Origin: Burkholderia sp. Bp8992
GTDB taxonomy: Bacteria; Pseudomonadota; Gammaproteobacteria; Burkholderiales; Burkholderiaceae
Assembly (NCBI RefSeq): GCF_003853705.1
Contig: NZ_QTQI01000005.1
Location: 124,001 to 188,000 of the forward strand
Direction: 5' to 3'
Length of the DNA stretch: 64,000 nucleotides
A program made the translations under genes and the position numbers. Below, in pieces: positions 10,748 to 29,695 of the stretch. Every line of letters starts with the position of its first letter. The first letter of the stretch is position 1. Under the pieces are notes generated by a model, which saw only the letters and a program-made list of their open reading frames with translations, did not search any database and had not been told where the DNA came from.

Positions 10748-10793
10748 TTCATCCTTTTGGCGGATACCGCGCGGCGCGCGCAGCCCGCACCAT
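10748..10793 (+). promoter_or_regulatory. Putative AraC activator site and promoter of moaF-SDR
   Basis: Positions 10748-10769 hold TTCATCCTTTTGGCGGATAC plus CG. Eighteen bases later comes CACCAT, a weak -10 element, so the 3' half of the site sits where a -35 box would. The same site with one mismatch, the same orientation and the same 18-bp gap occurs at 29325-29370. The layout matches an activator that replaces a poor -35. Confidence 0.6.
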
Positions 10794-10850
10794 GTGCACA
10801 TCTGCAGCGTACACGGCCCGCCGGGCCTGAAGCTGCGCGGGAGACGGCAG

Positions 10851-11684
10851 GTGGAACGACAGGATCCGGTATTCATTCAGGTTGGCGCGCTGGCAGACGG
10901 CTTCGCGCCGGAAGCGAACATCCTCGCGTCGGTCGACGCACTGGCCGGGCGCACGCTGGCGCTCGGCGACGCATCGGGCGCATGGCGCGTCTATTCGTTC
11001 GAGGCGGGCGCGCTGCAGTGGCGCGATGCGGCGACCGACACGAGCGGCCGCGAGCCGTGCCGCGTAACGCGGCTGCGCGACGGGCTGTACTTCGTCGACT
11101 ATGTCGACACGGCTGCCCGCGCGACGTCGGTCAGTCTCGTGATCGATCTCGACCATGGCGTGTGGACGTCGGTCGTCGGCGTGCTGCCGACCGAAGCCGA
11201 CACGCGCATCGACGCATTCACACGCGTCGCGCGCGGCTTGCCGCTGACGGCCGTCGATGCGGAATTCCGGCACGGCACGCTCGGCGGCCACTTGCAGCCG
11301 GGGCCGCTGCATGCGCCCACGCGCGAGCTGATCGGCAAGCGGACGCTGTACCGCTACAGCCCGACCGAATGCTACGAGCACATCTACCTGAACGAGAATT
11401 TCTACGCGTGGCAGTGCCTGCAGGGTGTCGAGGGCGGGCTGGCCGATGTCGACCGCTGTCATTACTTCAGGATCGCCGATGAACTGTATCTGTTCGTGTG
11501 GCGCGAAAAGGTGGTGCCGACGCTGGGCGTCGTCCTGATCGACCTTGCGCAGCGCAAGACCGACGGCAAGATCTTCGGCTACCAGGGCGGCGATTTCGGG
11601 GCGCTGTCGAACTTCCAGATCGGCGCCTACGCGCAGGTGTTGAACGAAACCGTGCATCCGCTCGGCGGCGAGGCGCAGCGATGA
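10851..11684 (+). CDS. MoaF-family protein
   Basis: 277-aa protein of the MoaF family (Pfam name refers to molybdenum cofactor, but the founding Klebsiella gene belongs to the monoamine regulon). FIQVGALADGFAPEANIL at the N-terminus and the C-terminal half (YRYSPTECYEHIYLNENFYAWQCLQG, CHYFRIADELYLFVWREKVVPTLG) are characteristic; the latter looks like a lipocalin/calycin-type barrel. The GTG at 10851 is preferred: GGGAGACGGCAG precedes it and homology starts there, while an ATG 57 bp upstream has no ribosome site. The stop overlaps the next start (ATGA). The biochemical role is unknown. Confidence 0.8.
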   Translation: MERQDPVFIQVGALADGFAPEANILASVDALAGRTLALGDASGAWRVYSFEAGALQWRDAATDTSGREPCRVTRLRDGLYFVDYVDTAARATSVSLVIDLDHGVWTSVVGVLPTEADTRIDAFTRVARGLPLTAVDAEFRHGTLGGHLQPGPLHAPTRELIGKRTLYRYSPTECYEHIYLNENFYAWQCLQGVEGGLADVDRCHYFRIADELYLFVWREKVVPTLGVVLIDLAQRKTDGKIFGYQGGDFGALSNFQIGAYAQVLNETVHPLGGEAQR

Positions 11685-12490
11685 ATGCCGTGCCGGGCAG
11701 CGGCCGCCTGCGTGCGGATTTCAGCGGGCGCGTCGTGCTCGTCACGGGTGCCGCGCAGGGGATCGGCGCGGCGATCGCGCGCCGTTTCGCGGAGTCCGAT
11801 GCGTTCGTCGCCGTGGCCGACCTGAACGGCGACGCGGCCGCCGCGCAGGCCGATGCGCTGGCCAGTGCGGGCGGCACTGCGCGCGCGTACCGGGTCGACG
11901 CAGCCAGCCGCGACGAACTGGGCGCGCTCGTCGCGGCCGTCGAGCGTGACGGCGGCCGGCTCGACGTCGTCGTTCATAACGCCGCGTATTTTCCGCTGAC
12001 GCCGTTTGCGCAGATCGACGAGCCGACGCTCGAGCGAACGCTGTCGGTCAACCTGTCGGCGCTGTTCTGGCTCGCGCAGGCCGCGTTGCCGGCATTCGAG
12101 CGCGCGGGGGCCGGGCGGCTGCTCGTCACGTCGTCGGTGACGGGGCCGCGCGTCGCCTATCCGGGGCTCGCGCATTACGCGGCGTCGAAGGCCGGCGTGA
12201 ACGGCTTCATTCGCGCGGCGGCGCTGGAACTCGCGCGCCGCAACGTGACGGTGAACGGCGTCGAGCCGGGGATGATCCGTACGCCGGCGGCCGGCAATCT
12301 CGGCGGCGCGTCGGTCGCGGCGCAGATCGCGCGCGACATTCCGCTCGCGCGGATGGGCGAGCCGGAGGACATCGCAAACGCGATGCTGTTTCTCGCATCG
12401 GCCGACGCGGCGTACATCACGGGGCAGACGATCGTCGTCGACGGCGGCGCGACCTTGCCGGAGAGCGGGGCGGTGCTGGGAGACGCGTAA
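11681..12490 (+). CDS. Short-chain dehydrogenase/reductase (MoaE-like partner of MoaF)
   Basis: 269-aa classical SDR. Cofactor motif TGAAQGIG, NNAG-equivalent HNAAY, catalytic Ser in TSSVTG, YxxxK in YAASKAG, and the C-terminal ITGQTIVVDGG are all present. ADLNG after beta-2 suggests NAD(H). It overlaps the MoaF stop by 4 bp, so the two are translationally coupled; Klebsiella moaE-moaF is also an SDR/MoaF pair. Substrate unknown. Confidence 0.9.
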   Translation: MNAVPGSGRLRADFSGRVVLVTGAAQGIGAAIARRFAESDAFVAVADLNGDAAAAQADALASAGGTARAYRVDAASRDELGALVAAVERDGGRLDVVVHNAAYFPLTPFAQIDEPTLERTLSVNLSALFWLAQAALPAFERAGAGRLLVTSSVTGPRVAYPGLAHYAASKAGVNGFIRAAALELARRNVTVNGVEPGMIRTPAAGNLGGASVAAQIARDIPLARMGEPEDIANAMLFLASADAAYITGQTIVVDGGATLPESGAVLGDA

Positions 12491-12586
12491 CGGTGGACGC
12501 GAACCGGCACGAGCAGCCGCTGCGGCAACGGTGCGGCCGGCATGTCGTGGCGAGCTGTGCCGTCGCCGGCCCGCACGCCGCCTCGA

Positions 12587-13279
12587 TTACAGCCAGCCGT
12601 TGCGGATGAATTCGACGATCGAATAGCGGCGGTTCTCGAGATCGTGCTGCCGGACGGCTTCGACGATGCGCGATACGCCATCCGCATAGGGCGCCGCGCC
12701 GACCACGCGCGATTCGAACTGCAGGCTGCATGCGCCGTCGTCGATGCGGATCCGGTGCACCGCATGGCGGCCGAGCTGATCGTCGGGGATGCCGAATTCG
12801 CTGCGCTGCACGTCCGGGTCGCGCACGGAGCGGATGTCCTCCGGCGGTACGCCGAGCGATAGGCCGATGCCGACGGCCGTGCCGGGGACGGACGTCTTGC
12901 CGGCCTGATGCGATTCCGCGAGGCTGATCTCGCAATCGCGGAACAGGTGGCCGCTCGTTTCCAGCATGCTCATGAACTTGAGCATCAGGATGTTGGTGTT
13001 CGGGCAGAGCACGACCGGGAAGTCATGCGATGCGGTTTCGAGGTCGGAGCCGGTGGACAACTCGACGAGCGGCGACGCGGTGGCCCGGCAGAACGCGATC
13101 GCGGCGGGGAGTTCGCGGCCGGAACCGGCGTGCACGACGATCGATCGGGCGTCGCTACGCGTTGCGTCGTCTTGCATGCTGTCCGACCAGGGCGTCACGC
13201 GACAGGTCGCCGGGTCGAGCTTGTGCGCATTGAGCAGTTCGTTGGCGAGCTTGCCGGTTCCTACGACGATTACTTGCAT
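12587..13279 (-). CDS. Dihydrodipicolinate reductase (DapB)-like NAD(P)-binding protein
   Basis: 230 aa, starting MQVIVVGTGKLANELL, a Rossmann GxGxxA/G motif. The order of later blocks (LVELSTGSD near residue 85, VVLCPNTNILMLKFMSML, CEISLAESHQAGKTSVPGTA with the ESHxxGK motif, and FESRVVGAAPYADGV) follows DapB, where the HH/K region binds tetrahydrodipicolinate; here a single His (ESHQ) remains. True lysine-pathway DapB of this genus is longer and lies elsewhere, so this is probably a paralogue with another substrate. It converges with the SDR at 11681-12490. Confidence 0.72.
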   Translation of the reverse strand: MQVIVVGTGKLANELLNAHKLDPATCRVTPWSDSMQDDATRSDARSIVVHAGSGRELPAAIAFCRATASPLVELSTGSDLETASHDFPVVLCPNTNILMLKFMSMLETSGHLFRDCEISLAESHQAGKTSVPGTAVGIGLSLGVPPEDIRSVRDPDVQRSEFGIPDDQLGRHAVHRIRIDDGACSLQFESRVVGAAPYADGVSRIVEAVRQHDLENRRYSIVEFIRNGWL

Positions 13280-13693
13280 GAAATTGACGGGTCGGGATTC
13301 AGGATTCGAGTCGGAGTTGGCGCGGGCCGTCGGGTAGCCCGGTACGGCGGTCGCGGCGCGCGCCGCGCCGGACGGGCCTCGCGCATTATGCCCGGCCGCC
13401 CGCGTCCGCGCTTGCCGGGCGCTGCATGGCGCGGTCGTCACGCCGATGCGTTCGCGCAACCCGTCGTCGCGCTCCAGCGCCGGGCGAGCTTGGCTCGCGA
13501 CGTCGCGGCAGCCCGTGACGGGTGGGCCGCGATCCGTTTCGTGATGCCGCTGCCGGGCCGGCGGCCGCGCAACCGGGGCGAAACGACGGACGATTTGCGC
13601 CGACGCAGCCTCGCCGCCGTGCGCACGGATGCGTGAACGGCGCTACGCTGTCGCAACTTCGTCAAACCATCCTCGATCCAGGAGAACTCATCG
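13280..13693. other. Intergenic region, no gene recognised
   Basis: 414 bp between the divergent DapB-like gene and the SDR. It is as GC-rich as coding DNA and contains open frames, including one ending at 13636 rich in Arg and Ala, but none has a ribosome site or recognisable motif. The last 20 bp carry CCAGGAGAACTCATCG, the ribosome site of the SDR. No repeat or clear promoter was seen. Confidence 0.5.
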
Positions 13694-14407
13694 ATGGAAC
13701 ACGATCTGAAAGGCAAGGCAGTCGCGATCACCGGCGGATTCGGCCATCTGGGCGTCGCGACGGCCGCATGGCTCGGCGCGCGCGGCGCACGCGTCGCGCT
13801 GATCGGCCGCGGCGCGGCGCCCGATGCACAGGCGCTGCCCGGTGTGCCGGCCGACGTGTTGCGCGTCGGCGGCATCGATCTCGTCGACCCGCAGGCCGCG
13901 GTGCAGGCGCTCGACACGGTCAACCGCGCATTCGGCCGGGTCGACGCACTGCTGAACATCGCCGGCGCATTCGTGTGGCAGACGATCGCCGACGGCGATG
14001 CGGCCACGTGGGACCGCATGTACGACCTGAACGTGAAGACCGCGCTGAACGCGTCGAAAGCCGCGCTGCCCTACCTGCTGGCGAGCCCGGCCGGCCGCGT
14101 CGTCAATATCGGCGCGGGCGCGGCGTTCAAGGCCGGCGCGGGCATGGGCGCGTATGCGGCCGCGAAGGCCGGCGTCGCGCGGCTCACCGAGGCGCTGGCG
14201 GCCGAACTGCTCGACCGCGGCGTGACGGTGAACGCGATCCTGCCGAGCATCATCGACACGCCGCCGAACCGCGCGGACATGCCCGATGCCGATTTCACGC
14301 GCTGGGTGCGGCCGGAACAGATCGCGGCGACGATCGGGTTCCTGCTGTCGGCCGACGCGCAGGCGATCACCGGCGCGTCGATTCCGGTGAACGGCCGCGT
14401 CGTGTAA
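13694..14407 (+). CDS. Short-chain dehydrogenase/reductase
   Basis: 237-aa SDR. Cofactor loop TGGFGHLG, NIAGAFVW, YAAAKAG as the YxxxK, and ITGASIPVNG at the C-terminus are visible. The Ser of the triad would be in VNIGAGAAFK, where the usual Ser is replaced by Gly-Ala; this may reduce or change activity and should be noted. It is monocistronic, ending 76 bp before creB. Substrate unknown. Confidence 0.85.
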   Translation: MEHDLKGKAVAITGGFGHLGVATAAWLGARGARVALIGRGAAPDAQALPGVPADVLRVGGIDLVDPQAAVQALDTVNRAFGRVDALLNIAGAFVWQTIADGDAATWDRMYDLNVKTALNASKAALPYLLASPAGRVVNIGAGAAFKAGAGMGAYAAAKAGVARLTEALAAELLDRGVTVNAILPSIIDTPPNRADMPDADFTRWVRPEQIAATIGFLLSADAQAITGASIPVNGRVV

Positions 14408-14483
14408 CGCGCCGGGAAGGGGCTGGCCGGGTCCGGCCGTGCGTACAATGTCGCACCGGATTGTGCGACCCGAACCCGAGACC

Positions 14484-15200
14484 ATGAATCAGCCCAATAT
14501 CCTGATCGTCGAAGATGAAATGGCGATCGCGGACACGATCGTCTACGCCCTCGGCACCGACGGCATGCAGACCGTCCACTGCACGCTCGGGCAGGCGGCG
14601 CTCGACCACCTGCGCGACACGCGTTTCGATCTCGTGGTGCTCGACGTCGGCCTGCCGGACCTCAGCGGCTTCGAGGTGTGCCGGCGGCTGCGCACGTTCA
14701 CCGACGTTCCGGTGATCTTCCTGACCGCGCGGCACGACGAGATCGACCGGATCGTCGGGCTCGAAATCGGCGCCGACGACTACGTGGTCAAGCCGTTCTC
14801 GCCGCGCGAGCTGGCGGCGCGGGTGCGTGTGATCCTGCGCCGCTTCTACCGCACGGCCGCGCCGGGACCGGCGCCAGTGCCTGCATCGGCAACGCTGCCG
14901 GCCGAAACGATCGCACCGGGTTTCACGCTCGACACCGACGGCGCGCGCGTATCGTGGCACGGCCACGCGCTGGACCTCACGCGCTACGAATTCGGCCTGC
15001 TGGCGCTGCTGGTCCGGCATCCGGGGCGCATCTATTCGCGCGAACAGCTGATGGACCTCGTGTGGCACGAGGCATTCGATTCGGCCGACCGCACGGTCGA
15101 CACGCACGTCAAGACACTGCGCGCCAAGCTGCGCGCGATCGATCCCGAGCGCGACCCGATCCGCACGCATCGCGGAATGGGTTATTCGCTGCAACCGTAA
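14484..15200 (+). CDS. creB: Response regulator CreB
   Basis: 238-aa OmpR/PhoB-type regulator. The receiver has acidic pocket EDE (10-12), phospho-acceptor Asp54 in VVLDVGLP, and the switch Lys in DDYVVKPFSPREL; the winged-helix DNA-binding domain begins near residue 140 (LTRYEFGLLALLVRHPGRIYSREQLMDLVW) and ends HRGMGYSLQP. The ATG at 14484 is used since an upstream ATG at 14439 adds 15 unrelated residues. Gene order creB-creC-creD and the TTCAC array before creD identify it. CreB responds to carbon-source and, in several Gram-negatives, beta-lactam or envelope stress. Confidence 0.93.
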   Translation: MNQPNILIVEDEMAIADTIVYALGTDGMQTVHCTLGQAALDHLRDTRFDLVVLDVGLPDLSGFEVCRRLRTFTDVPVIFLTARHDEIDRIVGLEIGADDYVVKPFSPRELAARVRVILRRFYRTAAPGPAPVPASATLPAETIAPGFTLDTDGARVSWHGHALDLTRYEFGLLALLVRHPGRIYSREQLMDLVWHEAFDSADRTVDTHVKTLRAKLRAIDPERDPIRTHRGMGYSLQP

Positions 15201-15215
15201 CGACCGGCACCGCCC

Positions 15216-16667
15216 ATGCATATCGGCCTGCGCATCTTCTTCGGTTTCTTCCTGATCGTCGGTCTCGCTGCGCTGATCACGCTGCGCGTATTCGTGCAGG
15301 AGGTGAAGCCCGGCGTGCGCGAGGCGATGGAGGACACGCTCGTCGATACCGCGCAGGTGCTCGCGACGCTGGCCGCCGACGACATGGCGCACGGGCATAT
15401 CGCCGACGGCGCGTTCGCACGTCAGCTCGGGAAACTGCGCGAGCGTCCGGTCAGCGCGAACGTGTGGGGCATCCAGAAGAACGCGATCGGCTACCGCCTC
15501 TACATCACCGACGCGCACGGCATCGTGCGCTACGACTCGTCCGGCAGCGCGGTCGGCCAGGACTATTCGCGCTGGAACGACGTGTACCGGACGCTGCGCG
15601 GCGAATACGGCGCGCGCAGCACGCGCAGCGATCCGAACGACGACAGCAGCACCGTGATGCACGTCGCGGCGCCGATCCGGCGCGGCAACGAGATCATCGG
15701 CGTGCTGACGATCGCGAAGCCGAACCAGACGGTCGCGCCGTTCATCGCGCGCAGCCAGCGCAAGATCATGCTGTACGGCGCGTTGCTGATGGGCGGCGCG
15801 ATCCTGATCGGCGTGGCGTGCACATGGTGGCTGGTGCTCGGGCTGCGGCGCCTGCAGCGCTATGCGCGTGCGATCGCGGCCGGCGAGCGCGCGGCGATGC
15901 CGCTGCAGGGCGCGAACGAGCTGGCCGAGCTCGGGCGCGCGGTGGAGAGCATGCATCAGCGGCTGGAGGACCGGCAGTACGTCGAAACCTACATCCACAC
16001 GCTCACGCACGAGATGAAGAGCCCGCTGGCCGCGATCAGCGGCGCGGCCGAACTGCTTCAGGAAGACATGCCGGTCGCGAACCGCCGGCGTTTCACCGAG
16101 AACATCCGCCGCCAGGCCGGCCGCCTCGAACAGATGATCCGCAAGCTGCTCGCGCTGGCCGAGGTCGAGCAGAAGCAGCGCCTGTCGGTGCACGAACAGG
16201 TCGCGTTGCGGCCGGTGCTCGAACAGCTCGTCGACGATCTCGAACCGCGCGCGCGGCAGCGCGGCGTGAGCCTGCGGATCGACGCGAACGATGCGGTCGA
16301 TCCTGCCGTCGTCGAAGGCGATCCGTTCCTGCTGCGCCAGGCGCTCGGCAACCTGCTCGACAACGCGCTGGATTTCGCGCCGCGGGGCAGCACGATCCGG
16401 ATCGCGCTCGAACGGCAGCCGGCGGGCAGGGCGCACGTCGCGATCGTGCGCGTCGACGACGACGGCCCCGGCGTGCCCGACTACGCGCTGTCGCGCGTGT
16501 TCGAGCGCTTCTATTCGCTGCCGCGCCCCGACGGGCAGGATCGCAGCACGGGCCTTGGGCTGTGTTTCGTCCGCGAAGTCGCGATGCTGCACCGCGGCCA
16601 GGTCGCGCTCGCGAACCGCGACGAAGGCGGCGCGTGCGCGACGCTCACGCTGCCGGCGGCCGGCTGA
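15216..16667 (+). CDS. creC: Sensor histidine kinase CreC
   Basis: 483 aa. An N-terminal membrane helix (IFFGFFLIVGLAALITLRVF), a periplasmic sensor domain to about residue 185, a second helix (IMLYGALLMGGAILIGVACTWWLV), a HAMP linker, then the dimerisation box with His265 in THEMKSPLAAI and the ATPase domain (NLLDNALDFA N-box, DDDGPGVP G1, STGLGLCFV G2). It starts 15 bp after creB. It phosphorylates CreB in the known system; the sensed signal is not defined. Confidence 0.93.
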   Translation: MHIGLRIFFGFFLIVGLAALITLRVFVQEVKPGVREAMEDTLVDTAQVLATLAADDMAHGHIADGAFARQLGKLRERPVSANVWGIQKNAIGYRLYITDAHGIVRYDSSGSAVGQDYSRWNDVYRTLRGEYGARSTRSDPNDDSSTVMHVAAPIRRGNEIIGVLTIAKPNQTVAPFIARSQRKIMLYGALLMGGAILIGVACTWWLVLGLRRLQRYARAIAAGERAAMPLQGANELAELGRAVESMHQRLEDRQYVETYIHTLTHEMKSPLAAISGAAELLQEDMPVANRRRFTENIRRQAGRLEQMIRKLLALAEVEQKQRLSVHEQVALRPVLEQLVDDLEPRARQRGVSLRIDANDAVDPAVVEGDPFLLRQALGNLLDNALDFAPRGSTIRIALERQPAGRAHVAIVRVDDDGPGVPDYALSRVFERFYSLPRPDGQDRSTGLGLCFVREVAMLHRGQVALANRDEGGACATLTLPAAG

Positions 16668-16673
16668 GCGCGC

Positions 16674-16722
16674 TTCACGTTCGCCACACATTCGCTTCAC
16701 GCCGGCTTCAATCGCCCTTCAC
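16674..16722 (+). promoter_or_regulatory. Phased TTCAC array (cre-tag) upstream of creD
   Basis: TTCAC stands at 16674, 16696 and 16718, TTCAA at 16707 and CACAC at 16685: five pentamers spaced exactly 11 bp. The published E. coli CreB site is TTCAC-N6-TTCAC, which has this same 11-bp period. The array fills most of the creC-creD gap, ending 48 bp before the creD start, so creD most likely has its own CreB-controlled promoter. Confidence 0.8.
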
Positions 16723-16770
16723 CGGGGCCGCTCATGCTGACCGCACCTTCCACTTCGGTATCCGTCAGCA

Positions 16771-18159
16771 ATGAATCGAGTCCTGTTGTTCAAGTCCGTG
16801 ATCACCGCGTTTCTCGCGCTGGCGATCCTGATCCCGCTGCAGATGGTCCAGAGCATCGTGCGGGAACGCGCCGATTATCGGCAGAGTGCGCTGCAGAGCA
16901 TCTGGGCGAGCTACGCGGGCCCGCAGTCGGTGACGGGGCCGGTGCTCGTCGTGCGTTACACGGAAGTCACGCGCGTGCGCGACGATTCGCCGGCCGGCGG
17001 CAAGGCGAAGACGAGCCTGAGGAGCGAGACGAAACGCCTGCTCGTGTTTCCGAAGACGCTGAGCGTCGACGGCACGCTGTCGGTCAGCGTGCGCTATCGC
17101 GGCATCCACAAGGCGCTGGTGTACGGGCTCGACAGCCGGATGACGGGCACGCTGCCGCTGCCTGACCTGAAGAAGCTGCCGCAGGCCGACGGCCACGTGA
17201 GCTTGAAGATCGACGGCGCGTATGTCGCGCTCGGCATCGGCGATCTTCGCGGGCTGAAGGCGCAACCCGACCTGCGCATCGGCGGCAAGCCGCTCGATGT
17301 GGAGCAGGGTACGCGGCTCGACAGCCTGCGCCAGGGCGTGCACGCGAACGTCGATCTCGCGGCGTTGCTGGACGCAAACGCAGGGGCGGCGGTCGTGCCG
17401 TTCAGCATTGGCCTGCCGCTGGCGGGTGCGGAATCCGTCGCGTTTGCACCGGTGGGTGACCAGAACGACTTTTCGTTGAAGTCGACGTGGCCGCACCCGA
17501 GCTTCGGCGGCGAGTTCCTGCCGGCCGAGCGCACGATCGATGCGCGCGGCTTCACGAGCAACTGGCACGTGACGTCGTTCAACACGAAGGCGCGCGAGCA
17601 GGTGGCGTCCGGCAACGGCGGGGACGAGATCGAGATGGCGTCGGTGTCGTTGGTCGAACCCGTGAACGTCTATCTGCAGGCGGAGCGTGCGACGAAGTAC
17701 GGTGCATTGTTCGTGATGCTCACGTTCGCGAGCTTCTTCATGTACGAGCTCGTGAAGCGGCTGCGCATTCACCCGATCCAGTACACGCTGGTCGGCCTGT
17801 CGCTCGCGCTGTTCTTCCTGCTGCTGCTGAGCCTGTCCGAGCACATCGCGTTCGGCTATGCGTATCTCGCGGCGAGCGCCGCATGCATCGGACTGCTCGG
17901 CTTCTACCTGTCGTTCGTGCTGCACAGCGTGAAGCGCGGCGCGACGTTCACGGCGCTGCTCGGGATGCTCTACGCGGCGCTCTACGGGCTGCTGCTGTCG
18001 GAAGACAATGCGCTGATGCTCGGTTCGTTGCTGCTGTTCGCGATCCTCGCCGGCATCATGACGCTCACGCGCCGCGTCGACTGGTATTCGCTCGGCGCCG
18101 CATGGCAGCCGCTGGCGGACAAGCAGGGTGCCGCGAAACCGGGCGCGCCGGCGAAGTAA
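16771..18159 (+). CDS. creD: Inner-membrane protein CreD
   Basis: 462 aa. One N-terminal helix (VITAFLALAILIPLQM), then a large periplasmic domain beginning with IVRERADYRQSALQSIWASYAGPQ, typical of CreD, to about residue 300, and a C-terminal block of five or six helices starting ALFVMLTFASFFMYELVKRLRIHPIQYTLVG, the conserved family signature. CreD is the most strongly CreBC-induced gene in E. coli and supports envelope integrity; its biochemical role is unknown. A terminator follows. Confidence 0.93.
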   Translation: MNRVLLFKSVITAFLALAILIPLQMVQSIVRERADYRQSALQSIWASYAGPQSVTGPVLVVRYTEVTRVRDDSPAGGKAKTSLRSETKRLLVFPKTLSVDGTLSVSVRYRGIHKALVYGLDSRMTGTLPLPDLKKLPQADGHVSLKIDGAYVALGIGDLRGLKAQPDLRIGGKPLDVEQGTRLDSLRQGVHANVDLAALLDANAGAAVVPFSIGLPLAGAESVAFAPVGDQNDFSLKSTWPHPSFGGEFLPAERTIDARGFTSNWHVTSFNTKAREQVASGNGGDEIEMASVSLVEPVNVYLQAERATKYGALFVMLTFASFFMYELVKRLRIHPIQYTLVGLSLALFFLLLLSLSEHIAFGYAYLAASAACIGLLGFYLSFVLHSVKRGATFTALLGMLYAALYGLLLSEDNALMLGSLLLFAILAGIMTLTRRVDWYSLGAAWQPLADKQGAAKPGAPAK

Positions 18160-18178
18160 TTGCGCGGGTGGCGAGCAC

Positions 18179-18215
18179 GCGCGCCGGCCCGGAATGCCGC
18201 GGCCGGCGCGCTTTT
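18179..18215 (+). terminator. Intrinsic terminator after creD
   Basis: GCGCGCCGGCC pairs perfectly with GGCCGGCGCGC across an 11-nt loop, followed by TTTT. It begins 20 bp after the creD stop and ends 19 bp before the stop of the convergent ridA-like gene. Confidence 0.85.
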
Positions 18216-18233
18216 GTACGGGGCGCTCGAGCC

Positions 18234-18656: not shown

Positions 18657-18676
18657 CGCGCAGCTCCGGTAGGGCG

Positions 18677-18695
18677 GGCACGGGATACCCGTGCC
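18677..18695. promoter_or_regulatory. Inverted repeat upstream of ridA-like gene
   Basis: GGCACGGG-ATA-CCCGTGCC, a perfect 8-bp repeat, lies 21 bp before the RidA-like start codon. Position suits a repressor site or a leader hairpin. No regulator is encoded next to it. Confidence 0.4.
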
Positions 18696-18800
18696 ATCGC
18701 GGCATTATGGCGGAGTTCCTCGTCGCCCCGTCCGTCCGGCTGACAGCGGCGGTGGCTCCGATCGACCTATACTGATCGTTCCACATTACCGGGCCACGCC

Positions 18801-18998: not shown

Positions 18999-19067
18999 AC
19001 CGGGCGCCGGCGCGTGCCTGCGCCATCGCGCGATCCGGTCCATTAAGCCGCTGCCATCCCTGTCCGG

Positions 19068-21546: not shown

Positions 21547-21589
21547 AACCAGGCCGTGCGACACGCGGCGGCGCGTTCGAGAGGCGTGC

Positions 21590-21910: not shown

Positions 21911-21941
21911 CGACGCGCGGGCGCTTTATGAGCGCGGCGGC

Positions 21942-22844
21942 CTACTCGGCAACTTCCCCTTCCGCATATGCACGCAACCCGTTGGCCAGCGCATCGAACA
22001 CGGCGCGGCAGCGCGGGTTCGTCCGCAAATCCTCATGCATCACGACCCAGGTTTCCAGCTTCATCGCGAGTTCGTCCGGCAGCACGCGCACGATTCGCGC
22101 ATCGCGTTTCGCGAGCGCCGACTGGCAGAAGCCGATGCCGTAGCCGGCGCGGATCATCGCGAGTTGCGCGAGGTTGCTGTCGGTGCGCAGCGCAAACGCT
22201 TCGCGCTTCCATAACGGCATCCCGCGCCCCGCCGAGCGGATGAACGGCGTGACCGTATCGAAGCCGATCAGCGCGTGATGCGCGAGTGCGTCGGTCGTCG
22301 CGGGCGCCCCGTGGTGCGCGAGATAGTCGTCGCGGGCATACAGCCCGACCTCGATTTCGCCGACTCGCCGCGCGACGAGCGCGTCCTGCGCGGGCGGCGC
22401 CATCCGGACCGCGATGTCGGCCTCGCGCTTCAGCACATCCTGGATGCGGTCAGTCGGCACCAGCTCGATGACGAGCCCCGGATGGTCGCGCCGCAACTGC
22501 GCGAGCATCGGCGGCAGCACCTCGACGGCGATCACGTCGCTTGCGGAGATCCGCACGATGCCGCGCACGCCCGCGCCGTGGCTCGCGGCCGCACGCTCGA
22601 ACGCGGCGGCCGCGCTGCGCAGCGCTTCCGCGTGGCCGCGCAGCGCAAGCGCCGCCTCGGTCGGCAGCAGGCCCGACGGCGAGCGCGTGAACAGCGTCTG
22701 GCCGAACGCGGCTTCGAGCGCCGCGACGTGGCGGCCGGCGGTGGGCTGCGTAATGCCGAGCGCGCGCGCCGCGCCGGACAGCGAGCCTTCCGTCAGCACG
22801 GCGAGGAAGGTCCGGTAGCGTTCCCAGTTCAGATCGATGGTCAT
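21942..22844 (-). CDS. LysR-family regulator divergent from epimerase
   Basis: 300 aa. HTH: WERYRTFLAVLTEGSLSGAARALGITQPTAGRHVAALE; ligand domain from residue 90 (GIVRISASDVIAVEVLPPMLAQLRRDHPGL). The variant with W-E-R-Y and G-x-x-Q-P-T-x-x-R-H matches LysRs that control single divergent redox genes. The intergenic region contains CCTATAGG (22864-22871) in an AT-rich block, a possible contact site. The epimerase-like gene opposite is the likely target. Confidence 0.88.
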   Translation of the reverse strand: MTIDLNWERYRTFLAVLTEGSLSGAARALGITQPTAGRHVAALEAAFGQTLFTRSPSGLLPTEAALALRGHAEALRSAAAAFERAAASHGAGVRGIVRISASDVIAVEVLPPMLAQLRRDHPGLVIELVPTDRIQDVLKREADIAVRMAPPAQDALVARRVGEIEVGLYARDDYLAHHGAPATTDALAHHALIGFDTVTPFIRSAGRGMPLWKREAFALRTDSNLAQLAMIRAGYGIGFCQSALAKRDARIVRVLPDELAMKLETWVVMHEDLRTNPRCRAVFDALANGLRAYAEGEVAE

Positions 22845-22942
22845 ACATAAATGTATAGCTGATCCTATAGGTTAGGCAATTTATTGTTGGCCGCCGGCGC
22901 GCGAGAATGCGTCTCACGATGAATCATTCAAGGAGAGCAGCG

Positions 22943-23926
22943 ATGACGACGAATGCAGGCGGGACGCAACGGCAGGCACTCGTGCTCGGCGCGAGCGGCG
23001 GGATTGGCGGGGAAGTCGCACGGCAGTTGCGCGATGCGGGCTGGCAGGTGCGCGCGCTCAAGCGCGGGCTCGATGCCGAGGTCGTGGAGCGCGACGGCAT
23101 CGCGTGGATGCGCGGCGACGCGCTGGATCGCGAGGCGGTGATCCGCGCCGCACGCGGCTGCAGCGTGATCGTGCATGCGGTGAATCCGCCCGGATACCGG
23201 AACTGGGCGCAGCAGGTGCTGCCGATGATCGACAACACGATCGCGGCGGCGAAGGCGGAGCGGGCCACCGTCGTGCTGCCGGGCACCGTCTACAACTACG
23301 GCGCCGACGCGTTTCCGGTGCTGGTCGAAGATGCGCCGCAGCATCCGTCGACGCGCAAGGGCGCGATCCGCGTCGAGCTGGAGCGCCGGCTGCAGGACGC
23401 GGCCGGGCAGGGCGTTCGCACGATCATCGTGCGGGCCGGCGATTTCTTCGGGCCGAAGCTCACCGGCAACAGCTGGTTTGCGGCGGGGTTGGTCAAGGCC
23501 GGGCGGCCGGTTGCTGCCATCAGCGTGCCGGGGCGGGACGGCATCGGGCATCAATGGTCGTACGTGCCGGACGCCGCGCGCGCGATGGTCGAGCTGATCG
23601 AGCGGCGCGACACGCTGGAACCGTTCGCGCGCTTTCACCTCGGCGGGCATTGGGACGAGGATGGCTCGCAGATGGCGGAGGCCGTGCGCCGCGTCGCGCA
23701 GCGGCACGGGCTGCGGCCGACGGTGCGCAAGTTCCCCTGGTGGTTCGTGTGGGCCGCGGCGCCGTTCGTCACGACGCTGCGCGAATTGCTCGAGATGCGC
23801 TACCTGTGGCGCGAGCCGATCCGGCTCGACAACACGCGCGTGACCACGGTGCTCGGCCGCGAGCCGGTGACGCCGCTCGACACGGCGGTGGAAGTGACAT
23901 TGGCGGGGCTGGGGTGTCTCAAATGA
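22943..23926 (+). CDS. NAD-dependent epimerase/dehydratase-like protein
   Basis: 327 aa, extended SDR/NAD(P)-binding fold. LVLGASGGIGGEVARQLRDAGW is the Rossmann loop; VHAVNPPGYRNWAQQVLPM and VVLPGTVYNYG follow, where the usual YxxxK is replaced by a Y-N-Y-G...RKG arrangement (TRKGAIRVELE). AAGQGVRTIIVRAGDFFGP is typical of isomerase-like members. The ATG at 22943 follows AAGGAGAGCAGCG. Divergent from the LysR gene. Substrate unknown. Confidence 0.83.
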   Translation: MTTNAGGTQRQALVLGASGGIGGEVARQLRDAGWQVRALKRGLDAEVVERDGIAWMRGDALDREAVIRAARGCSVIVHAVNPPGYRNWAQQVLPMIDNTIAAAKAERATVVLPGTVYNYGADAFPVLVEDAPQHPSTRKGAIRVELERRLQDAAGQGVRTIIVRAGDFFGPKLTGNSWFAAGLVKAGRPVAAISVPGRDGIGHQWSYVPDAARAMVELIERRDTLEPFARFHLGGHWDEDGSQMAEAVRRVAQRHGLRPTVRKFPWWFVWAAAPFVTTLRELLEMRYLWREPIRLDNTRVTTVLGREPVTPLDTAVEVTLAGLGCLK

Positions 23927-24074
23927 GCTGCGGCCGGTAGCACGAGTTGCACCCGGGCACCGAAACGCGTCACGGCGAACCACTGCACTCGCGGAACAAC
24001 AATTCTCCACATACCCGCACGCGTCCGGTGCGCATCATGTCGGTCAATGCCGAGACGGCGAAAACGGGGGCGCG

Positions 24075-24218
24075 ATGGGGTATTTTGGATGGAAAGTGTC
24101 GGTTGCGGGGGCAATCATGTTCACGTTGAGCGGGTGCACCAACCTGGCTGGCGTGCTGTACTGCGGCAACTCGCAATTCAATTTTCCGGATTACCACTGC
24201 TTCGAATCGTACCGGTAG
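24075..24218 (+). CDS. 47-residue lipoprotein, unknown
   Basis: Small lipoprotein. MGYFGWKVSVAGAIMFTLSGC forms the signal with lipobox LSGC; the mature part is only 27 residues (CTNLAGVLYCGNSQFNFPDYHCF region) with two further cysteines and several aromatics. The stop is at 24216-24218. No clear ribosome site (GGGGGCGCG) but the lipobox and residue choice argue that it is real. No family recognised. Confidence 0.55.
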   Translation: MGYFGWKVSVAGAIMFTLSGCTNLAGVLYCGNSQFNFPDYHCFESYR

Positions 24219-24276
24219 AACAGCGCGCCGACCGAACGCCGCCGCGCCCGCGTCCCATGCGGTTTCCCGCTGCCCG

Positions 24277-24978
24277 TTACGCCACGACCGGCAGCACCTC
24301 GACCGCATACCGGTGCCGCAGGCTGCGCCCGAGCACCGGATCGTGCAGTTCCATTTCGAACGCGTCACCGTCGCCCATCGCCGCGATTGCGCCATGCACG
24401 GCGACCGTGCCGCCATACATCGCGCAGCGCGCGGGCATCGTGCGGCGGTCGTCGAAACGCTGCCACAGCACCTCGGGCACAAGCAGGCCGCTGACCGCGC
24501 CGTGCTGATATGCCGTCCGTTCGCCATCGCGCGAAATCAGCCAAGAACGCATCTCGATCGCATCCCAGTGATCCGCTACTTCCGCGTAAAGCCACGCGTC
24601 GCGGCCGAGCGGCTTCGCGCATACCTGCTTCGACACTGCGACGCCATACGCCTCGACTTCACGATCCGTATGATCGGAGCCGACGGTCACGAGCGTGCCG
24701 GCCGGGCTGTCGACCAGCACGCATTCGATCTCGCCGCCCGAGCGCGCACCGAGCACGCCGATCGACGGTGCCTGCGTGAGCAGTGCCGACGACACGCGAT
24801 AGAAGCACGGCGTGGTCGACGGCGGCACGACGCCGAGTGCCGCGAGTTCGTCGATATGCGCCTGGATCGCTGCCGGGTCGCGGCCGGCCCAGCCGGCAAT
24901 CACGACGCGCTGGATGTCGACGTCGACGGCGGTTGGCGCGCCTTGCAGGGAAATCATGTTGAACGACAGGGTTGGCAT
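24277..24978 (-). CDS. DUF2848-family protein
   Basis: 233 aa. The pattern VVIAGWAGRDPAAIQAHIDELAALGVVPPSTTPCFYRV, the SGGEIECVLV and TVGSDHTDREVEAYGVAVSKQVCAKPLG blocks are characteristic of DUF2848, proteins thought to adopt a fumarylacetoacetate-hydrolase-like fold. The conserved SDHTDRE and K could bind metal and a keto acid, so a hydrolase for a small organic acid is plausible but unproven. It is the last gene of a minus-strand cluster with an MHS transporter 49 bp upstream. Confidence 0.8.
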   Translation of the reverse strand: MPTLSFNMISLQGAPTAVDVDIQRVVIAGWAGRDPAAIQAHIDELAALGVVPPSTTPCFYRVSSALLTQAPSIGVLGARSGGEIECVLVDSPAGTLVTVGSDHTDREVEAYGVAVSKQVCAKPLGRDAWLYAEVADHWDAIEMRSWLISRDGERTAYQHGAVSGLLVPEVLWQRFDDRRTMPARCAMYGGTVAVHGAIAAMGDGDAFEMELHDPVLGRSLRHRYAVEVLPVVA

Positions 24979-25027
24979 GCGGAGATCCGTTTGAAGTGCG
25001 AAGAAAAGAATCGGCTGGCGGCGACGC

Positions 25028-26335
25028 TCAATCCTCGAGCGGCCGGTGCGCGGTTTCGCGCGCGACGAGCAGCGCAATCGACGTGACGACGAGCGCGGCG
25101 GTGACGTACAGCGACACGGCCGTCGTCGTGCCCGTCTGCCGGAACAGCGCGGCGATCACGAGCGGCGCGAAGCCGCCGCCGACGATGCCCGCGAGCGTGT
25201 ACGCGAGCGACGAGCCGGCATAGCGCACGCGGGTCGGGAACTGCTCGGTCACGAACGCGCCCTGCGGGCCGTACATCACCGCATGGATCACGAGGCCGAT
25301 CGCAACCGCCGCGACGATCGCACCGGGGCGCGCCGAATCGAGCATCACGAAGAACACGAACGCCCACACGATGCCGGCCATTGCGCCGGCGAGATACACG
25401 GGCCGGCGGCCGAAGCGGTCCGACAGCGCACCGAAGAACGGCACCGCGAGCGCGTTGCAGGCCGTGCCGATCATCACGGCCGTCAGCGCGACGGGGCGCG
25501 ACAGGTGCAGCACGGTCGTCACGTAGGTGAGCGTGAACACGACGATCAGCGCATACAGCACATCCGAGCCGATCCGCGAGCCGCCCGCGATCAGCAGGCG
25601 CTTCCAGTGATGCTTCAGCACGTCGGCGACGGGCACTTCGGCGGTTGCGTGCGACTCGGCGAGTTGCTCGAACTGCGGCGTTTCGTCGACGCCGCGTCGC
25701 AGCCAGAAACCGAACACGACGAGCAGCGCGCTGGCCGCGAACGGCACGCGCCAGCCCCACGACAGGAAGGTGTCGGACGTGGTCGACAGCGTCACGAGCG
25801 CGATGCAGCCGGTGCCGAGCAGCGTGCCGAACGACGGGCCGATCTGCGTCCACGACGCGGACAGGCCGCGCCGGTTCTGGTCGCCATGCTCGACCGACAG
25901 CAGCACCGCGCCGGCCCATTCGCCGCCGAGCGCGACGCCCTGCACGAAGCGCAGCGCGACGAGCAGGATCGGGCTCAGGATGCCGGCTTGCGCATAGGTC
26001 GGCAGCGCGCCCATCAACGCGGTCGTCACACCCATCAGCACGAGCGTGAGCATCAGCACCGCGCGGCGGCCGATGCGGTCGCCGAGGTTGCCGAACACGA
26101 AACCGCCGAGCGGGCGCGATACATAGCCGACCGCATAGGTCGAGAACGCGAGGATCGTGCCGGCCAGCGGATCGACCGACGGGAAGAACAGGTGGTTGAA
26201 AACGAGCGCGGCGAGCGTGTTGTAGATCGTGAAGTCGTACCACTCGAGCGACGTGCCGATCATGCTCGCGGTCGCGAGTCGGCTGGTGCGGACGCGGCGG
26301 GGCGCGCGGGCGGCGGGCTGGGCGAGAGTGCTCAT
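25028..26335 (-). CDS. MHS-family (metabolite:H+ symporter) MFS transporter
   Basis: 435 aa, 12 helices. IGTSLEWYDFTIYNTLAALVF near residue 27 and FSTYAVGYVSRPLGGFVFGNLGDRIGRR are the hallmark of MHS transporters (ShiA, KgtP, ProP relatives), which import organic acids or osmolytes with protons; RFVQGVALGGEWAGAVLL is the conserved helix-4 motif. Its partners (EthD-like, DUF2848) suggest uptake of a carboxylate for catabolism. Confidence 0.9.
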   Translation of the reverse strand: MSTLAQPAARAPRRVRTSRLATASMIGTSLEWYDFTIYNTLAALVFNHLFFPSVDPLAGTILAFSTYAVGYVSRPLGGFVFGNLGDRIGRRAVLMLTLVLMGVTTALMGALPTYAQAGILSPILLVALRFVQGVALGGEWAGAVLLSVEHGDQNRRGLSASWTQIGPSFGTLLGTGCIALVTLSTTSDTFLSWGWRVPFAASALLVVFGFWLRRGVDETPQFEQLAESHATAEVPVADVLKHHWKRLLIAGGSRIGSDVLYALIVVFTLTYVTTVLHLSRPVALTAVMIGTACNALAVPFFGALSDRFGRRPVYLAGAMAGIVWAFVFFVMLDSARPGAIVAAVAIGLVIHAVMYGPQGAFVTEQFPTRVRYAGSSLAYTLAGIVGGGFAPLVIAALFRQTGTTTAVSLYVTAALVVTSIALLVARETAHRPLED

Positions 26336-26438
26336 GGTATCGGGCAGGTCGTGACGGATGACGGGAGTAGGCGCACAGCCGGCGTGCCGGCCGCGTACGG
26401 GTGCGGTACGGCGAGCGCAGGCGGGCGGCGTTCAGTGT

Positions 26439-27128
26439 TCAGGCTGGCAATGCGGCAGCGGCGGCCGGTTCGTCTTCGGCGGCGCGGTGTGCAACCTGCA
26501 GCGGTGCAGCGGCGCGCCACAGCAGGTCGAACGTGCGCACGTCGTCGTGCCCGGCGAGCGCGGCGGCCACGCGACGCGTCACGGCGGCGTCGCTGCCTTC
26601 GATTAGCACGAGCGCATCGGCAGCCGGGCGGGCGGCCGCATCGGCGCCGATCGGCGCGGACAGGTCGGGTGTGGTGCGGAAGAGTCGTGCGGCGTGGATA
26701 TGCGGTTCGTGCAGCGCGTCGTCGAAGCGTTCGCGCAGGTGCGGCGCGTCGATGCGGTCCGGCGGCAGCACGAACAGCGCGAGATGCGCGCCTTCGCCGT
26801 CGCCGGCCTCGATCGTCAGTTCGCCGACGCGCCGCTGCGTGCCCGTCATGCGTTCGAAGTTCGCGAGCGACCACGCGGTCTGCTGCGTGAACGCGCGCCG
26901 GTACGCATCGCCGCGGAACACGTCGAGCGCGTCCGTCACGTACAGCGCGAGGTACTTGCGCGGGCCGCCGTCGGTCGCGCGAAAGCGCCGCGCATGCGTG
27001 AAGCCGGGAATCGCGACACGCTCCTGCATGTGCTCGCGGTCGTACCACGCGTTGAAATCGGCTTCGTGCGCGGGGTCGATATCCGTCCAGACGCAAAGCT
27101 GGCCGTGCGGAAGGGAAAGGCGGGTCAT
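26439..27128 (-). CDS. EthD-like/DUF4286 tandem ferredoxin-fold protein
   Basis: 229 aa with what look like two dimeric alpha-beta barrel halves. DIDPAHEADFNAWYDREHMQERVAIPGFTHARRF is the EthD/DUF4286 signature, an N-W-Y-x-x-E-H motif followed by an aromatic Arg; a second, less conserved half begins near residue 105 (HLALFVLPPDRIDAPHLRERFDDALHEPHIHAARLFR). Such proteins assist ring-cleavage or dehydration steps. It lies between LysR and the MHS transporter. The ATG at 27128 is chosen; an upstream extension lacks homology. Confidence 0.75.
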   Translation of the reverse strand: MTRLSLPHGQLCVWTDIDPAHEADFNAWYDREHMQERVAIPGFTHARRFRATDGGPRKYLALYVTDALDVFRGDAYRRAFTQQTAWSLANFERMTGTQRRVGELTIEAGDGEGAHLALFVLPPDRIDAPHLRERFDDALHEPHIHAARLFRTTPDLSAPIGADAAARPAADALVLIEGSDAAVTRRVAAALAGHDDVRTFDLLWRAAAPLQVAHRAAEDEPAAAAALPA

Positions 27129-27227
27129 CGCGGGGTTCCTCGTGACGGGGGTGTCAGGAACCTCAGTTTCCCGAAGCCGGGCTGCGCCCGTCCAACAAGA
27201 AAACAAATTCGCGGTGAACAGGTTTTC

Positions 27228-28265
27228 TTATGAGCGGCGCGAGCGGCGTTTCGCAGCCGGGGCGGCAGGCGGCTCGGCCTTGGTCGTGCGCGTCGCTTTT
27301 GCCTGCGTTTTCGTCTTGGTCCGCGGCGCCTTGCGTGCGGGCGTTGCATCGATGCGTTCGGGCGCGGCCGGTTTCGCGTGACCGGCAGCGGCCGCCATCG
27401 CGCGTGCGACTTCGCTCGCGAGTTCCGCGATGCGCGCGGCCACCGGCAAACCCTGGCTGCGGTACGTCGCGACGAGCGGCAACGCGGGGAATTCGGGTTC
27501 GACGTCGAGCAGTTCGAGCGTGCCTTCGTGCAGCTCGCGCCCGATGATCGCGGGCGGCAGCGCGGCCACGCCGAAGCCGTCGGCGACGAGGCGGATCATC
27601 GCGGCGACCGACGTGATGCAGTTGATGCTGGCCGGCCGTTCGACGGCAGCGAACAGCCGCTCGATCGTCGCGTGCGGCCCCGAATGGCGCGAGAAGCTGA
27701 TGATCGGAAACCCGGCCAGGCGCGCGACGTCGAGCGGCTGGCCGCCGAGCCCGAGGCGCGGGCTCGCGGCCCAGCGCACCGGGAATTCGCACAGCGGCAG
27801 GTTCGTGAAGTCGGGGCCCGGCACGGGGTCGGTCTGCAGGATCAGGTCGACGCCGTCGGTGCTGAGCAGACGGATCAGGTGCAGCGTCGTGTCGCTCGTG
27901 ATCTCGACGTCGAGGCGCGGATAGCGCTCGCGCAGTTGCGCCATCAGCGCCGGGAACCAGCTGTGCACGATCGATTCGATCACGCCGATCCGGATCAGGC
28001 CCGCGTCGCTCGCCGCATCGATGTCGCGACGCATTTCGCCGTCGAGCCGCACGATCCGCTCTGCGTACGCGAGCATGCGGCGGCCCGCGGGCGTCAGCGT
28101 GGCCGAGCGCGTGTTGCGGTCGAACAGGCGCACGTCGAACGCTTCCTCGAGCGAGGCGATGCGGCTCGATACGGCGGCTTGCGTCGTGTGCAGCTTTTCG
28201 GCCGTGAGCCGGAAGTTTTCCAGCTTCGCGAGCCAGACGAAGGTTTCAAGAAACCGGATGTTCAT
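27228..28265 (-). CDS. LysR-family regulator with long basic C-terminal tail
   Basis: 345 aa, about 45 more than usual. HTH: MNIRFLETFVWLAKLENFRLTAEKLHTTQAAVSSRIASLE; the ligand domain ends near residue 297. The extra tail is low-complexity, rich in Ala, Lys, Arg, Thr and Pro (RKAPRTKTKTQAKATRTTKA...KRRSRRS), like histone H1-type tails of bacterial nucleoid proteins. It probably regulates the EthD-MHS-DUF2848 genes downstream on the same strand. Confidence 0.85.
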   Translation of the reverse strand: MNIRFLETFVWLAKLENFRLTAEKLHTTQAAVSSRIASLEEAFDVRLFDRNTRSATLTPAGRRMLAYAERIVRLDGEMRRDIDAASDAGLIRIGVIESIVHSWFPALMAQLRERYPRLDVEITSDTTLHLIRLLSTDGVDLILQTDPVPGPDFTNLPLCEFPVRWAASPRLGLGGQPLDVARLAGFPIISFSRHSGPHATIERLFAAVERPASINCITSVAAMIRLVADGFGVAALPPAIIGRELHEGTLELLDVEPEFPALPLVATYRSQGLPVAARIAELASEVARAMAAAAGHAKPAAPERIDATPARKAPRTKTKTQAKATRTTKAEPPAAPAAKRRSRRS

Positions 28266-28340
28266 CGATGACCGAACTGTGAGGCGGCGCCGGACGGGGC
28301 GGCAGGATCGGTCGATGGTAGCGGATTTTCGGGGCGGGCA

Positions 28341-28420
28341 ACGGGCAGACAAACGGGCAGACAAACGGCGCGTTTGCCGCCGGGCAGACAAACGGGCAGG
28401 CGGCGCGGCGCGTTTGCCGC
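28341..28420. repeat. Imperfect 40-bp tandem duplication upstream of LysR
   Basis: Two 40-bp blocks (28341-28380 and 28381-28420) share GGGCAGACAAACGGGCAG and the ending CGGCGCGTTTGCCGC. Within block one, CGGGCAGACAAA is itself repeated, and CAAACG-GCG-CGTTTG (28362-28376) is a palindrome. The array lies about 75 bp before the LysR start and 80 bp past the SDR stop. Confidence 0.75.
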
Positions 28421-28501
28421 GGCGGGTACGGATGCTCGCGGCGCCGGTGCCGGCGCACTTGCCCGCTACGACGTGCCGCGCGGGCGGTGCGCCGCTCCGT
28501 G

Positions 28502-29293
28502 TCAAAGCGCGTCGAACGCGAGCGTCGGCACGTCGACGACCATCGCGCCGCCGTCGGCAACGAGCGTCGCTCCGGTGATGAAGGACGCGTCCGGCGACGC
28601 GAGGAACGCGCAGACGGCCGCGATTTCGTCCGGCTCGGCCGCGCGGCGCAGCGGCACGTCGGCGCTCACGCGCGCATACGCGCCGTCGAGCGAGTCGCCG
28701 TGCGCGGCCATCAGCGGTTCCATTTCCGCGTCGGCCATCGGCGTGCGGACCCAGCCGGGGCATACGGCGTTCGCGCGCACACCGTGCGGCCCGTAGTCGC
28801 GTGCCAGCGACCGCGCGAGCCCGAGCAGCGCATGCTTGCCGACCGTGTAGCCGCATACGCCTGGTCCGGCCGCGAGCGCGGCGATCGACGCGACCAGCAC
28901 GATGCTGCCACGCTGCGTGATCAGGTCGGGCAGGCACGCACGCGCGCTGACGAACGCGGTGTCGAGGTTTGCGTGCATCGCGTTGCGCCACTGCGTGTCG
29001 TCCGTTTCGTCCGCTCGGCCGACGCCGTGGCCGCCCGCGCACGCGACGAGCGCGTCGACGCGGCCGAAGCGTTCGGCGATGCGCGGCATGAACGCGGCCC
29101 AGTCGGCGGTGCTCGCGGCGTCGCCGGCGAGGACGAGGCCGCCCGTCTCGGCGGCCAGCGCGTCGAGCGGCGCCTGACGGCGCCCGATCAGCACGACGCG
29201 ATCGCCGCGGCTGGCGAAGCGGCGCGCGCATGCGGCGCCGATGCCGGTGCCCGCGCCGGTGATCGCGATCGTGCGAGATTGCGGGTGCGTCAT
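28502..29293 (-). CDS. Short-chain dehydrogenase/reductase under the shared AraC-type site
   Basis: 263 aa. TGAGTGIG cofactor loop, ACAGGHG, VASIAALAAGPGVCGYTVGKHAL (Ser and YxxxK, here Y-T-V-G-K), and ITGATLVADGG at the C-terminus. After beta-2 it reads LIGRRQ, which favours NADP(H). GGAGAACGAC precedes the ATG. Its promoter region carries the 22-bp element also found before the MoaF-SDR operon, so it is a candidate second target of the AraC protein at 9886-10680. Confidence 0.9.
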   Translation of the reverse strand: MTHPQSRTIAITGAGTGIGAACARRFASRGDRVVLIGRRQAPLDALAAETGGLVLAGDAASTADWAAFMPRIAERFGRVDALVACAGGHGVGRADETDDTQWRNAMHANLDTAFVSARACLPDLITQRGSIVLVASIAALAAGPGVCGYTVGKHALLGLARSLARDYGPHGVRANAVCPGWVRTPMADAEMEPLMAAHGDSLDGAYARVSADVPLRRAAEPDEIAAVCAFLASPDASFITGATLVADGGAMVVDVPTLAFDAL

Positions 29294-29695
29294 GTCGTTC
29301 TCCGGAAAGGTGTCGTTACCGGCCACTTTAGGCGGCGCCGGCGCGCGACGGTATCCGCCGAAAGGATGAACGCGGGTCGTTCGGACGGCCGGCGCGGCCG
29401 TGGCCCATTTTGCAAAGGCTGACGATGTCCGGCGCCGAATCGCTCTATCCTCCACATTTTTGGGATAAGTCACGAAAGCCCGGCAAAATAGCGCAGGCGT
29501 GCGCGCGCCTCGACGCGCGGCGCGTCGGCCGGCCGATTCCGTCGTGCGAGCGGAGCGGCAGGCGGACGAGATCGGCGCGAGCCTGCGCCCGATATGCGGG
29601 CGTCGTGCCCGCCGATGGATCGGGTCGCCGCGGCGTATCGCCCGGTTGCGCGCTGGCGCGGCCGGACCATCGACACGAACAGGGAGGGGCCGGCA
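29294..29695. other. Intergenic region between divergent genes
   Basis: 402 bp. The left end holds the SDR promoter and 22-bp site (29325-29370). The middle is less GC-rich (TCCACATTTTTGGGATAAG near 29450), and AGGGAGGGGCCGGCA near 29681 is the ribosome site of the metallopeptidase. I see no gene in it. Confidence 0.5.
29325..29370 (-). promoter_or_regulatory. Putative AraC activator site and promoter of the SDR
   Basis: On the minus strand 29370-29349 reads TTCATCCTTTCGGCGGATAC plus CG, then 18 bp, then TAAAGT (29330-29325). It differs at one of 22 positions from 10748-10769 and has the identical spacing to its -10 element. Confidence 0.6.

Follow-up and report, generated by a model that had tools for sequence, protein, structure and literature searches.

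The closest described counterpart of the genes considered here is the monoamine (moa) regulon of Klebsiella aerogenes, in which MoaR reportedly controls moaEF positively, going by the title of a 1995 paper by Azakami and colleagues. In a 64-kb stretch of Burkholderia sp. Bp8992 DNA (the window), we found two closely matching promoter sites in front of genes for orthologues of MoaF and MoaE, together with a gene for a LuxR-type (GerE) regulator related to MoaR (30741-31469, + strand), which we propose as the activator at both sites. Our reading, to which we assign a probability of about 0.84, is that both sites would be operators of this one LuxR-type, MoaR-related activator and that the genes they serve come from a compact cluster that was split; the system is most likely the Burkholderia version of the monoamine regulon. 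The K. aerogenes regulator itself is treated as LuxR-type in a passage of PMC6099782.

A search of proteins from plasmid records yielded a K. aerogenes product, annotated as monoamine regulon transcriptional regulator, that aligned with the LuxR-type protein at 29.8% identity over residues 24-238 (E 2e-17); its neighbourhood holds moaF, moaE, atsA, atsB, feaB, and genes for a PuuB-like oxidoreductase and a permease. Pairwise identities to K. aerogenes were 55% for MoaF, 66% for the permease, 45% for the aldehyde dehydrogenase (ALDH) against FeaB, and, against MoaE, 60% for the product of sdr3 and 30% for that of sdr1, both genes encoding short-chain dehydrogenases (SDRs); sdr1 is 59% identical to SDRs encoded close to moaF by K. 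variicola and by a P. aeruginosa plasmid. From the MoaF and MoaE homology and the moaEF title, the two site-bearing genes of the window appear to be orthologues of the moaEF operon genes, and we infer that they are targets of the regulator. The idea of one regulator for both promoters, put forward in the original prediction from the letters of this DNA, is probably right, and both site-bearing genes match the Klebsiella neighbours moaF and moaE. The two systems share orthologues of MoaF, MoaE, the permease, and a MoaR-like regulator, and the operator-like cores at several K. aerogenes promoters may point to a common operator. They differ in that moaE and moaF form one operon in K. aerogenes, whereas the moaF and moaE orthologues of the window stand under separate promoters 18.6 kb apart and, in compact relatives, are convergent; moreover, an extra SDR gene follows moaF in the window, and luxR is followed by genes for an ALDH, an aminotransferase, and a permease.

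The proposed regulon genes are the moaF orthologue (open frame 10794-11684, + strand, with a likely GTG start near 10851), sdr1 (11681-12490, + strand), which overlaps the moaF stop, and sdr3, the moaE orthologue (28502-29293, - strand). The genes for the ALDH (31964-33466), a class III aminotransferase (33530-34870), and an APC-type permease (35109-36611) lie downstream of luxR on the + strand. The best NCBIfam match of the ALDH was StyD, a phenylacetaldehyde dehydrogenase, below the cut-off. MoaF matched the chain of PDB entry 4q51 over nearly its full length (E 6e-177), a solved structure of a very close relative. Our reading would link uncharacterised Burkholderia MoaF and SDR proteins to the monoamine regulon. 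The C-terminal portion of MoaF shows remote similarity to phenolic acid decarboxylases (E 5e-5); as a guess, MoaF may be an enzyme with a product of an aromatic amine as its substrate. Of the two substrate classes named earlier, amines fit better and aromatic acids less well, as judged by homology only.

The same gene set of ALDH, aminotransferase, and APC transporter occurs in the histamine (hin) genes of Pseudomonas, where it stands under one regulator according to a passage of PMC8231116. HinK is described there as LysR-type and thus belongs to another regulator family, and we rejected it as the closest relative. LuxR-family quorum-sensing regulators and LuxR solos share with the window protein the C-terminal GerE DNA-binding domain (found with Pfam) and the class II dyad position that we deduce below. 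The window protein differs from the quorum-sensing regulators in that Autoind_bind was not among its Pfam matches at E up to 5; in the homologue on the P. aeruginosa plasmid this domain matched weakly, below the cut-off (E 0.0017). Because one homologue matched GAF above the cut-off, the N-terminal domain may be GAF-like.

Site 1 (TTCATCCTTTTGGCGGATACCG, 10748-10769, + strand) and site 2 (TTCATCCTTTCGGCGGATACCG, 29370-29349, - strand) both carry the 22-mer TTCATCCTTTYGGCGGATACCG and agree at 21 of 22 positions, with a single-base difference. Exactly 18 bp past the site there follows, at both loci, a -10-like hexamer, which is CACCAT at the moaF promoter (10788-10793, + strand) and TAAAGT at the sdr3 promoter (29330-29325, - strand); in these respects the original prediction was confirmed. 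Five exact 8-position dyad cores occur in the window, and only those of sites 1 and 2 have a -10-like hexamer 23 bp off the dyad edge.

To describe the site, we used a collection of 101 distinct sites, which represent 37 distinct 22-mers and come in many cases from close relatives; some were obtained with patterns that already fixed several letters, and the -10 hexamer played no part in their selection. Their best symmetry is the dyad TCNNCC-N4-GGNNGA (10749-10764 in site 1, 29369-29354 in site 2), with a complementarity of 0.50 at centre 9.5; a centre at position 11 was discarded, its complementarity being only 0.39. The hexamer exactly 18 bp past the 22-mer was TANANT in 59 of the 101 sites and CACCAT in 36, with four other hexamers and two shifted by one base; among the 54 moaF-side sites, CACCAT stood at this spacing in 36 and TANANT in 17. 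If the hexamer is taken as -12 to -7, the dyad centre would lie near -43.5 relative to a start deduced in this way. This is close to the -42.5 at which LuxR-type class II activators have their dyad centre.

In a first survey at up to three mismatches, 61 genomes were searched, 37 of the same genus and 24 from outside it. At least one copy of the site was present in 33 of the 37 same-genus genomes, and 23 of the 37 carried a convergent pair on a single contig, the two copies being separated by 7.8-29.4 kb, whereas five of the 24 others had one three-mismatch match each and the reversed pattern gave one match in all 61 genomes. When the window proteins were mapped on the fetched stretches, one copy was found to precede moaF and the other sdr3. 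Because the convergent pair recurs in same-genus genomes, in front of these two genes, the site pair is a conserved feature and not a coincidence.

A second survey used a 150-genome family sample, in which the site was scored by a degenerate pattern designed after the sites of several of these genomes had been seen. A LuxR orthologue of at least 49% identity was detected in 16 of the 150 genomes, a 17th match reaching only 29%, and the same 16 genomes carry, in front of moaF, a site that fits the degenerate pattern without mismatch. Among the 134 genomes without LuxR, two (G181 and G196) had a zero-mismatch match, neither of them having a moaF match; in three others (G073, G110, and G137), where moaF is 50-52% identical and LuxR is missing, no site was found near moaF.

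We also scanned 14 genomes, 11 with LuxR and three without, for the site core together with the spacing and the -10 hexamer. The LuxR-bearing genomes yielded 19 matches at moaF or sdr3 promoters; of two others, that in G020 is unrelated and that in G023 lies in front of a MoaF paralogue. The three LuxR-less genomes yielded one match (G080) and the reversed control none. Paralogous loci in G018 and G023 hold genes for a second LuxR (~30%), a permease, an ALDH, and MoaF2, together with frames that look by eye like a porin and a FAD oxidoreductase. In both genomes a palindrome, TCAACC-N4-GGTTGA, separates luxR2 from the following frame; G018 also has it beside the permease gene, and a near-palindromic site precedes moaF2, with TAGAAT at 23 bp. 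These data support the view that the operator goes with this clade of LuxR-type regulators, the paralogous loci adding to that support.

The gene order in other species bears on how the two promoters came apart. A LuxR profile gave 58 loci, of which 33 were used for gene-order counts. A compact cluster, in which the site with moaF-sdr1 is followed by sdr3 with its own convergent site and then by luxR, was seen in Paraburkholderia and some Burkholderia, among them G030, G033, and G154. Across the 19 loci L181-L199, which are from Paraburkholderia, Trinickia, and two named Burkholderia, moaF, sdr1, sdr3, and luxR occur together in 13, and four (L188, L189, L190, and L197) have moaF and luxR and neither SDR gene; only the site before moaF and luxR were found in P. 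kururiensis, P. phenoliruptrix, a Paraburkholderia metagenome-assembled genome, and Trinickia soli. Of this set, 17 loci have moaF, and in 16 of them the site was found in front of it, the exception being L199, where a search at up to two mismatches gave none. On the same contig as G015, locus L180 has luxR, sdr1, moaF, a one-mismatch site, and an AraC gene side by side. Because of its spread, the compact form is inferred to be ancestral. The earlier view of genes that used to stand side by side and have since come apart agrees with the compact arrangement of other species, and as far as moaF-sdr1 and sdr3 are concerned, the idea of a single dispersed pathway is right. A scattered gene cluster can thus stay one regulon through its operators.

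The gene for an ALDH follows luxR in 26 of 34 mapped stretches, some of which share genomes, and genes for a class III aminotransferase and a permease often accompany the pair. Burkholderia guangdongensis (L187) has luxR, the ALDH, and the aminotransferase, and Aquitalea (L200-L202) has these and the permease, with no moaF in the stretch in either case.

Beyond Burkholderia and its neighbours, an exact operator core was found before the permease gene of K. aerogenes, and one-mismatch cores lie there in the atsB-moaR gap, in the puuB-feaB gap, and before moaE, where TAAGGT follows at 23 bp in the direction of moaE. The 1.9 kb of K. aerogenes promoter stretches contain six cores at up to one mismatch against ~0.5 expected per kb, four of them alike and two, ending in GC, of unrelated appearance. 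Exact cores also precede luxR in Salmonella and Pantoea and moaF on the P. aeruginosa plasmid. We consider it possible, with rather less than even odds, that MoaR-type regulators of beta- and gammaproteobacteria share the TCNNCC-N4-GGNNGA code, placed 23 bp before the -10 in Burkholderia relatives, and that when the Burkholderia cluster was broken both promoters kept this code, the operator having also captured the divergent araC-eamA genes. If such a shared code were true, amine regulons would become predictable from sequence.

The reading of both sites as operators of the LuxR-type activator builds on features seen directly in the DNA, namely the sites, their fixed geometry, their co-occurrence with luxR, the compact cluster, and the moa homology. 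As to binding, activation, inducer, pathway, and direction of rearrangement, which we deduce, a dimer of the LuxR-type protein would occupy the dyad TCNNCC-N4-GGNNGA, whose centre lies ~43 bp ahead of the deduced start; the bound dyad would overlap a poor -35, and the dimer would recruit RNA polymerase (class II activation). The moaF-sdr1 and sdr3 (moaE) promoters would be activated in this way, probably in response to an amine or to the corresponding aldehyde, and the compact ancestor would have been split by ~16 kb of other genes. A little-studied family of catabolic regulators would thereby gain a testable operator with a fixed promoter geometry.

Several observations limit this reading or weigh against it. 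Within the window alone, the significance of the site pair is weak to modest, and the comparison with other genomes carries it: it contains three pairs of 22-mers that differ at no more than one base, whereas 20 dinucleotide shuffles averaged 0.65 such pairs, a single shuffle likewise yielding 3, and a 16-mer search at up to three mismatches gave 3 matches against 1.81 expected. Nine positions are invariant among the 37 distinct 22-mers (T2, C3, A4, C6, C7, G12, G16, A17, and T18), the invariance of the letters fixed in the degenerate pattern being partly by construction. The separation of LuxR-bearing from LuxR-less genomes holds only at zero mismatches, as at one mismatch the degenerate pattern matches 36 of the 134 LuxR-less genomes (52 of 150 overall), G022 among them, and both G022 and G031 retain degraded copies of the two sites without LuxR. 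No operator core with up to one mismatch lies beside the starts of luxR or the ALDH, aminotransferase, and permease genes in the window, so their place in the regulon is tentative. The LuxR-type protein is only 30% identical to MoaR; seven exact cores lie in the 40.6 kb of the P. aeruginosa stretch, several of them intragenic, so the one before moaF could be chance; the K. variicola stretch has no exact core, and its one-mismatch core lies in the permease/luxR gap and not before moaF; and in Aquitalea L200, which has a 40% LuxR and the ALDH-aminotransferase-permease set, no core was found in the stretches examined.

An addition to the LuxR-type activator, which we regard as tentative and somewhat improbable, is that the divergent araC-eamA genes were captured in Burkholderia as an extra operator target. 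These genes encode an AraC-family regulator (9886-10680, - strand; assigned with Pfam) and, as its more lasting partner, an EamA/DMT transporter (8756-9697, - strand). A -10-like hexamer, TAAAGT (10719-10724, - strand), stands on the araC side at 24 bp from the dyad edge (the moaF side has 23 bp), and TANAGT was found at this position in 33 of 35 site-1 sequences, the other two being from G007 and G030, neither of which has araC there. However, the araC regions are closely related and their conservation could have other causes, and in L180 the araC-side hexamer is 5 bp nearer.

Far less probable is the view of the original prediction that the divergent AraC protein itself acts at both sites, binding them and switching on moaF-sdr1 and sdr3. 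Of the 16 family-sample genomes that carry the site, 11 do have the AraC gene next to site 1, as do the same-genus split genomes, where it matched at 84% identity or more or as two pieces (G008 and G031), and binding that overlaps the -35 is common among AraC-family activators. Yet the AraC gene is missing beside the moaF site in the other five of those 16 and in Paraburkholderia and Trinickia stretches, and the site and its geometry are kept without an adjoining AraC gene in G007, G030, G033, G034, G085, G134, and G154. In the first four, which are Burkholderia, the best-scoring AraC homologue is only 34-37% identical, and the site, or a variant within one mismatch of the degenerate pattern, precedes moaF. 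G085, G134, and G154 have an AraC homologue of 49-54% identity at another place, with an EamA gene adjacent in two and ~3.4 kb off in the third, and no site at up to three mismatches was found in the 9-kb stretches around these homologues. The site core is, moreover, better described as an inverted repeat. With the site persisting before moaF where no AraC gene adjoins it, and AraC homologues standing elsewhere without the site, the AraC assignment is very probably wrong, and the assumption that the nearest gene encodes the regulator is corrected accordingly.

The LysR-EthD-MHS-DUF2848 genes (24277-28265, - strand), counted earlier as part of the same pathway, are not supported as a necessary part of it. 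They are gone from the interval between the epimerase gene and sdr3, which is where the search was made, in G008, G010, G016, G019, and G025, all of which keep sdr3 and its site; G016 has an exact site 2, and in G008, G010, G019, and G025 it departs from the degenerate pattern at three positions. These genes are a cassette separable from the regulon. That the LysR protein encoded behind sdr3 (27228-28265, - strand) binds both sites can be dismissed as very improbable: the 22-mer does contain T-N11-A and an ATC-N9-GAT that resembles a LysR box, and the LysR gene adjoins sdr3 in many split genomes, but it is missing from the compact clusters and from the interval in the five genomes above, where the site is kept.

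As to the gene labels given before, those for AraC, MoaF, SDR, MFS, LysR, and DUF2848 were supported by Pfam, whereas EthD was not, the only match being DUF4286 below the cut-off (E 0.0039). The string ATCCTTTTGGCGGATA was absent from the PubMed Central open papers searched, the 1990s Klebsiella papers not being among those read, and MoaF together with short-chain dehydrogenase had no match in PubMed Central open papers. Among the papers listed for MoaF by itself, most had unrelated titles and a few were bacterial (for example PMC12322963 and PMC11540253).

Some further observations concern the sites and the genes around them. Two more 22-mer pairs with at most one mismatch lie in the window at 2017/22102 and 12590/40083. 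Upstream of site 2, on the luxR side (29400-29420 in the window), most split genomes have a second conserved element, TTTGCAAAATGG, which has an AATYGGCAAA-like counterpart in compact clusters; the element was seen upstream of sdr3 in L178 and L181-L199. In L062 (G031) and L063 (G022), luxR is missing, neither sdr1 nor sdr3 was found in the stretch, moaF is present as remnants, and both sites are at two to three mismatches; the regulon seems to be in decay in these two genomes. The luxR orthologue of L117 (G034, 6342-8524) is in two pieces ~1.5 kb apart. The creBCD genes (14439-18159 in the window) stand between the two promoters in some genomes and are absent from the interval in others (L062-L069). 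After sdr1, the window and most mapped genomes have a frame (12587-13279 in the window) whose product weakly resembles dihydrodipicolinate reductase (DapB) and matches no Pfam family above the cut-off, and the permease gene of the window is followed by one for an AraC-type regulator (37155-38204) that resembles EutR, below the cut-off.

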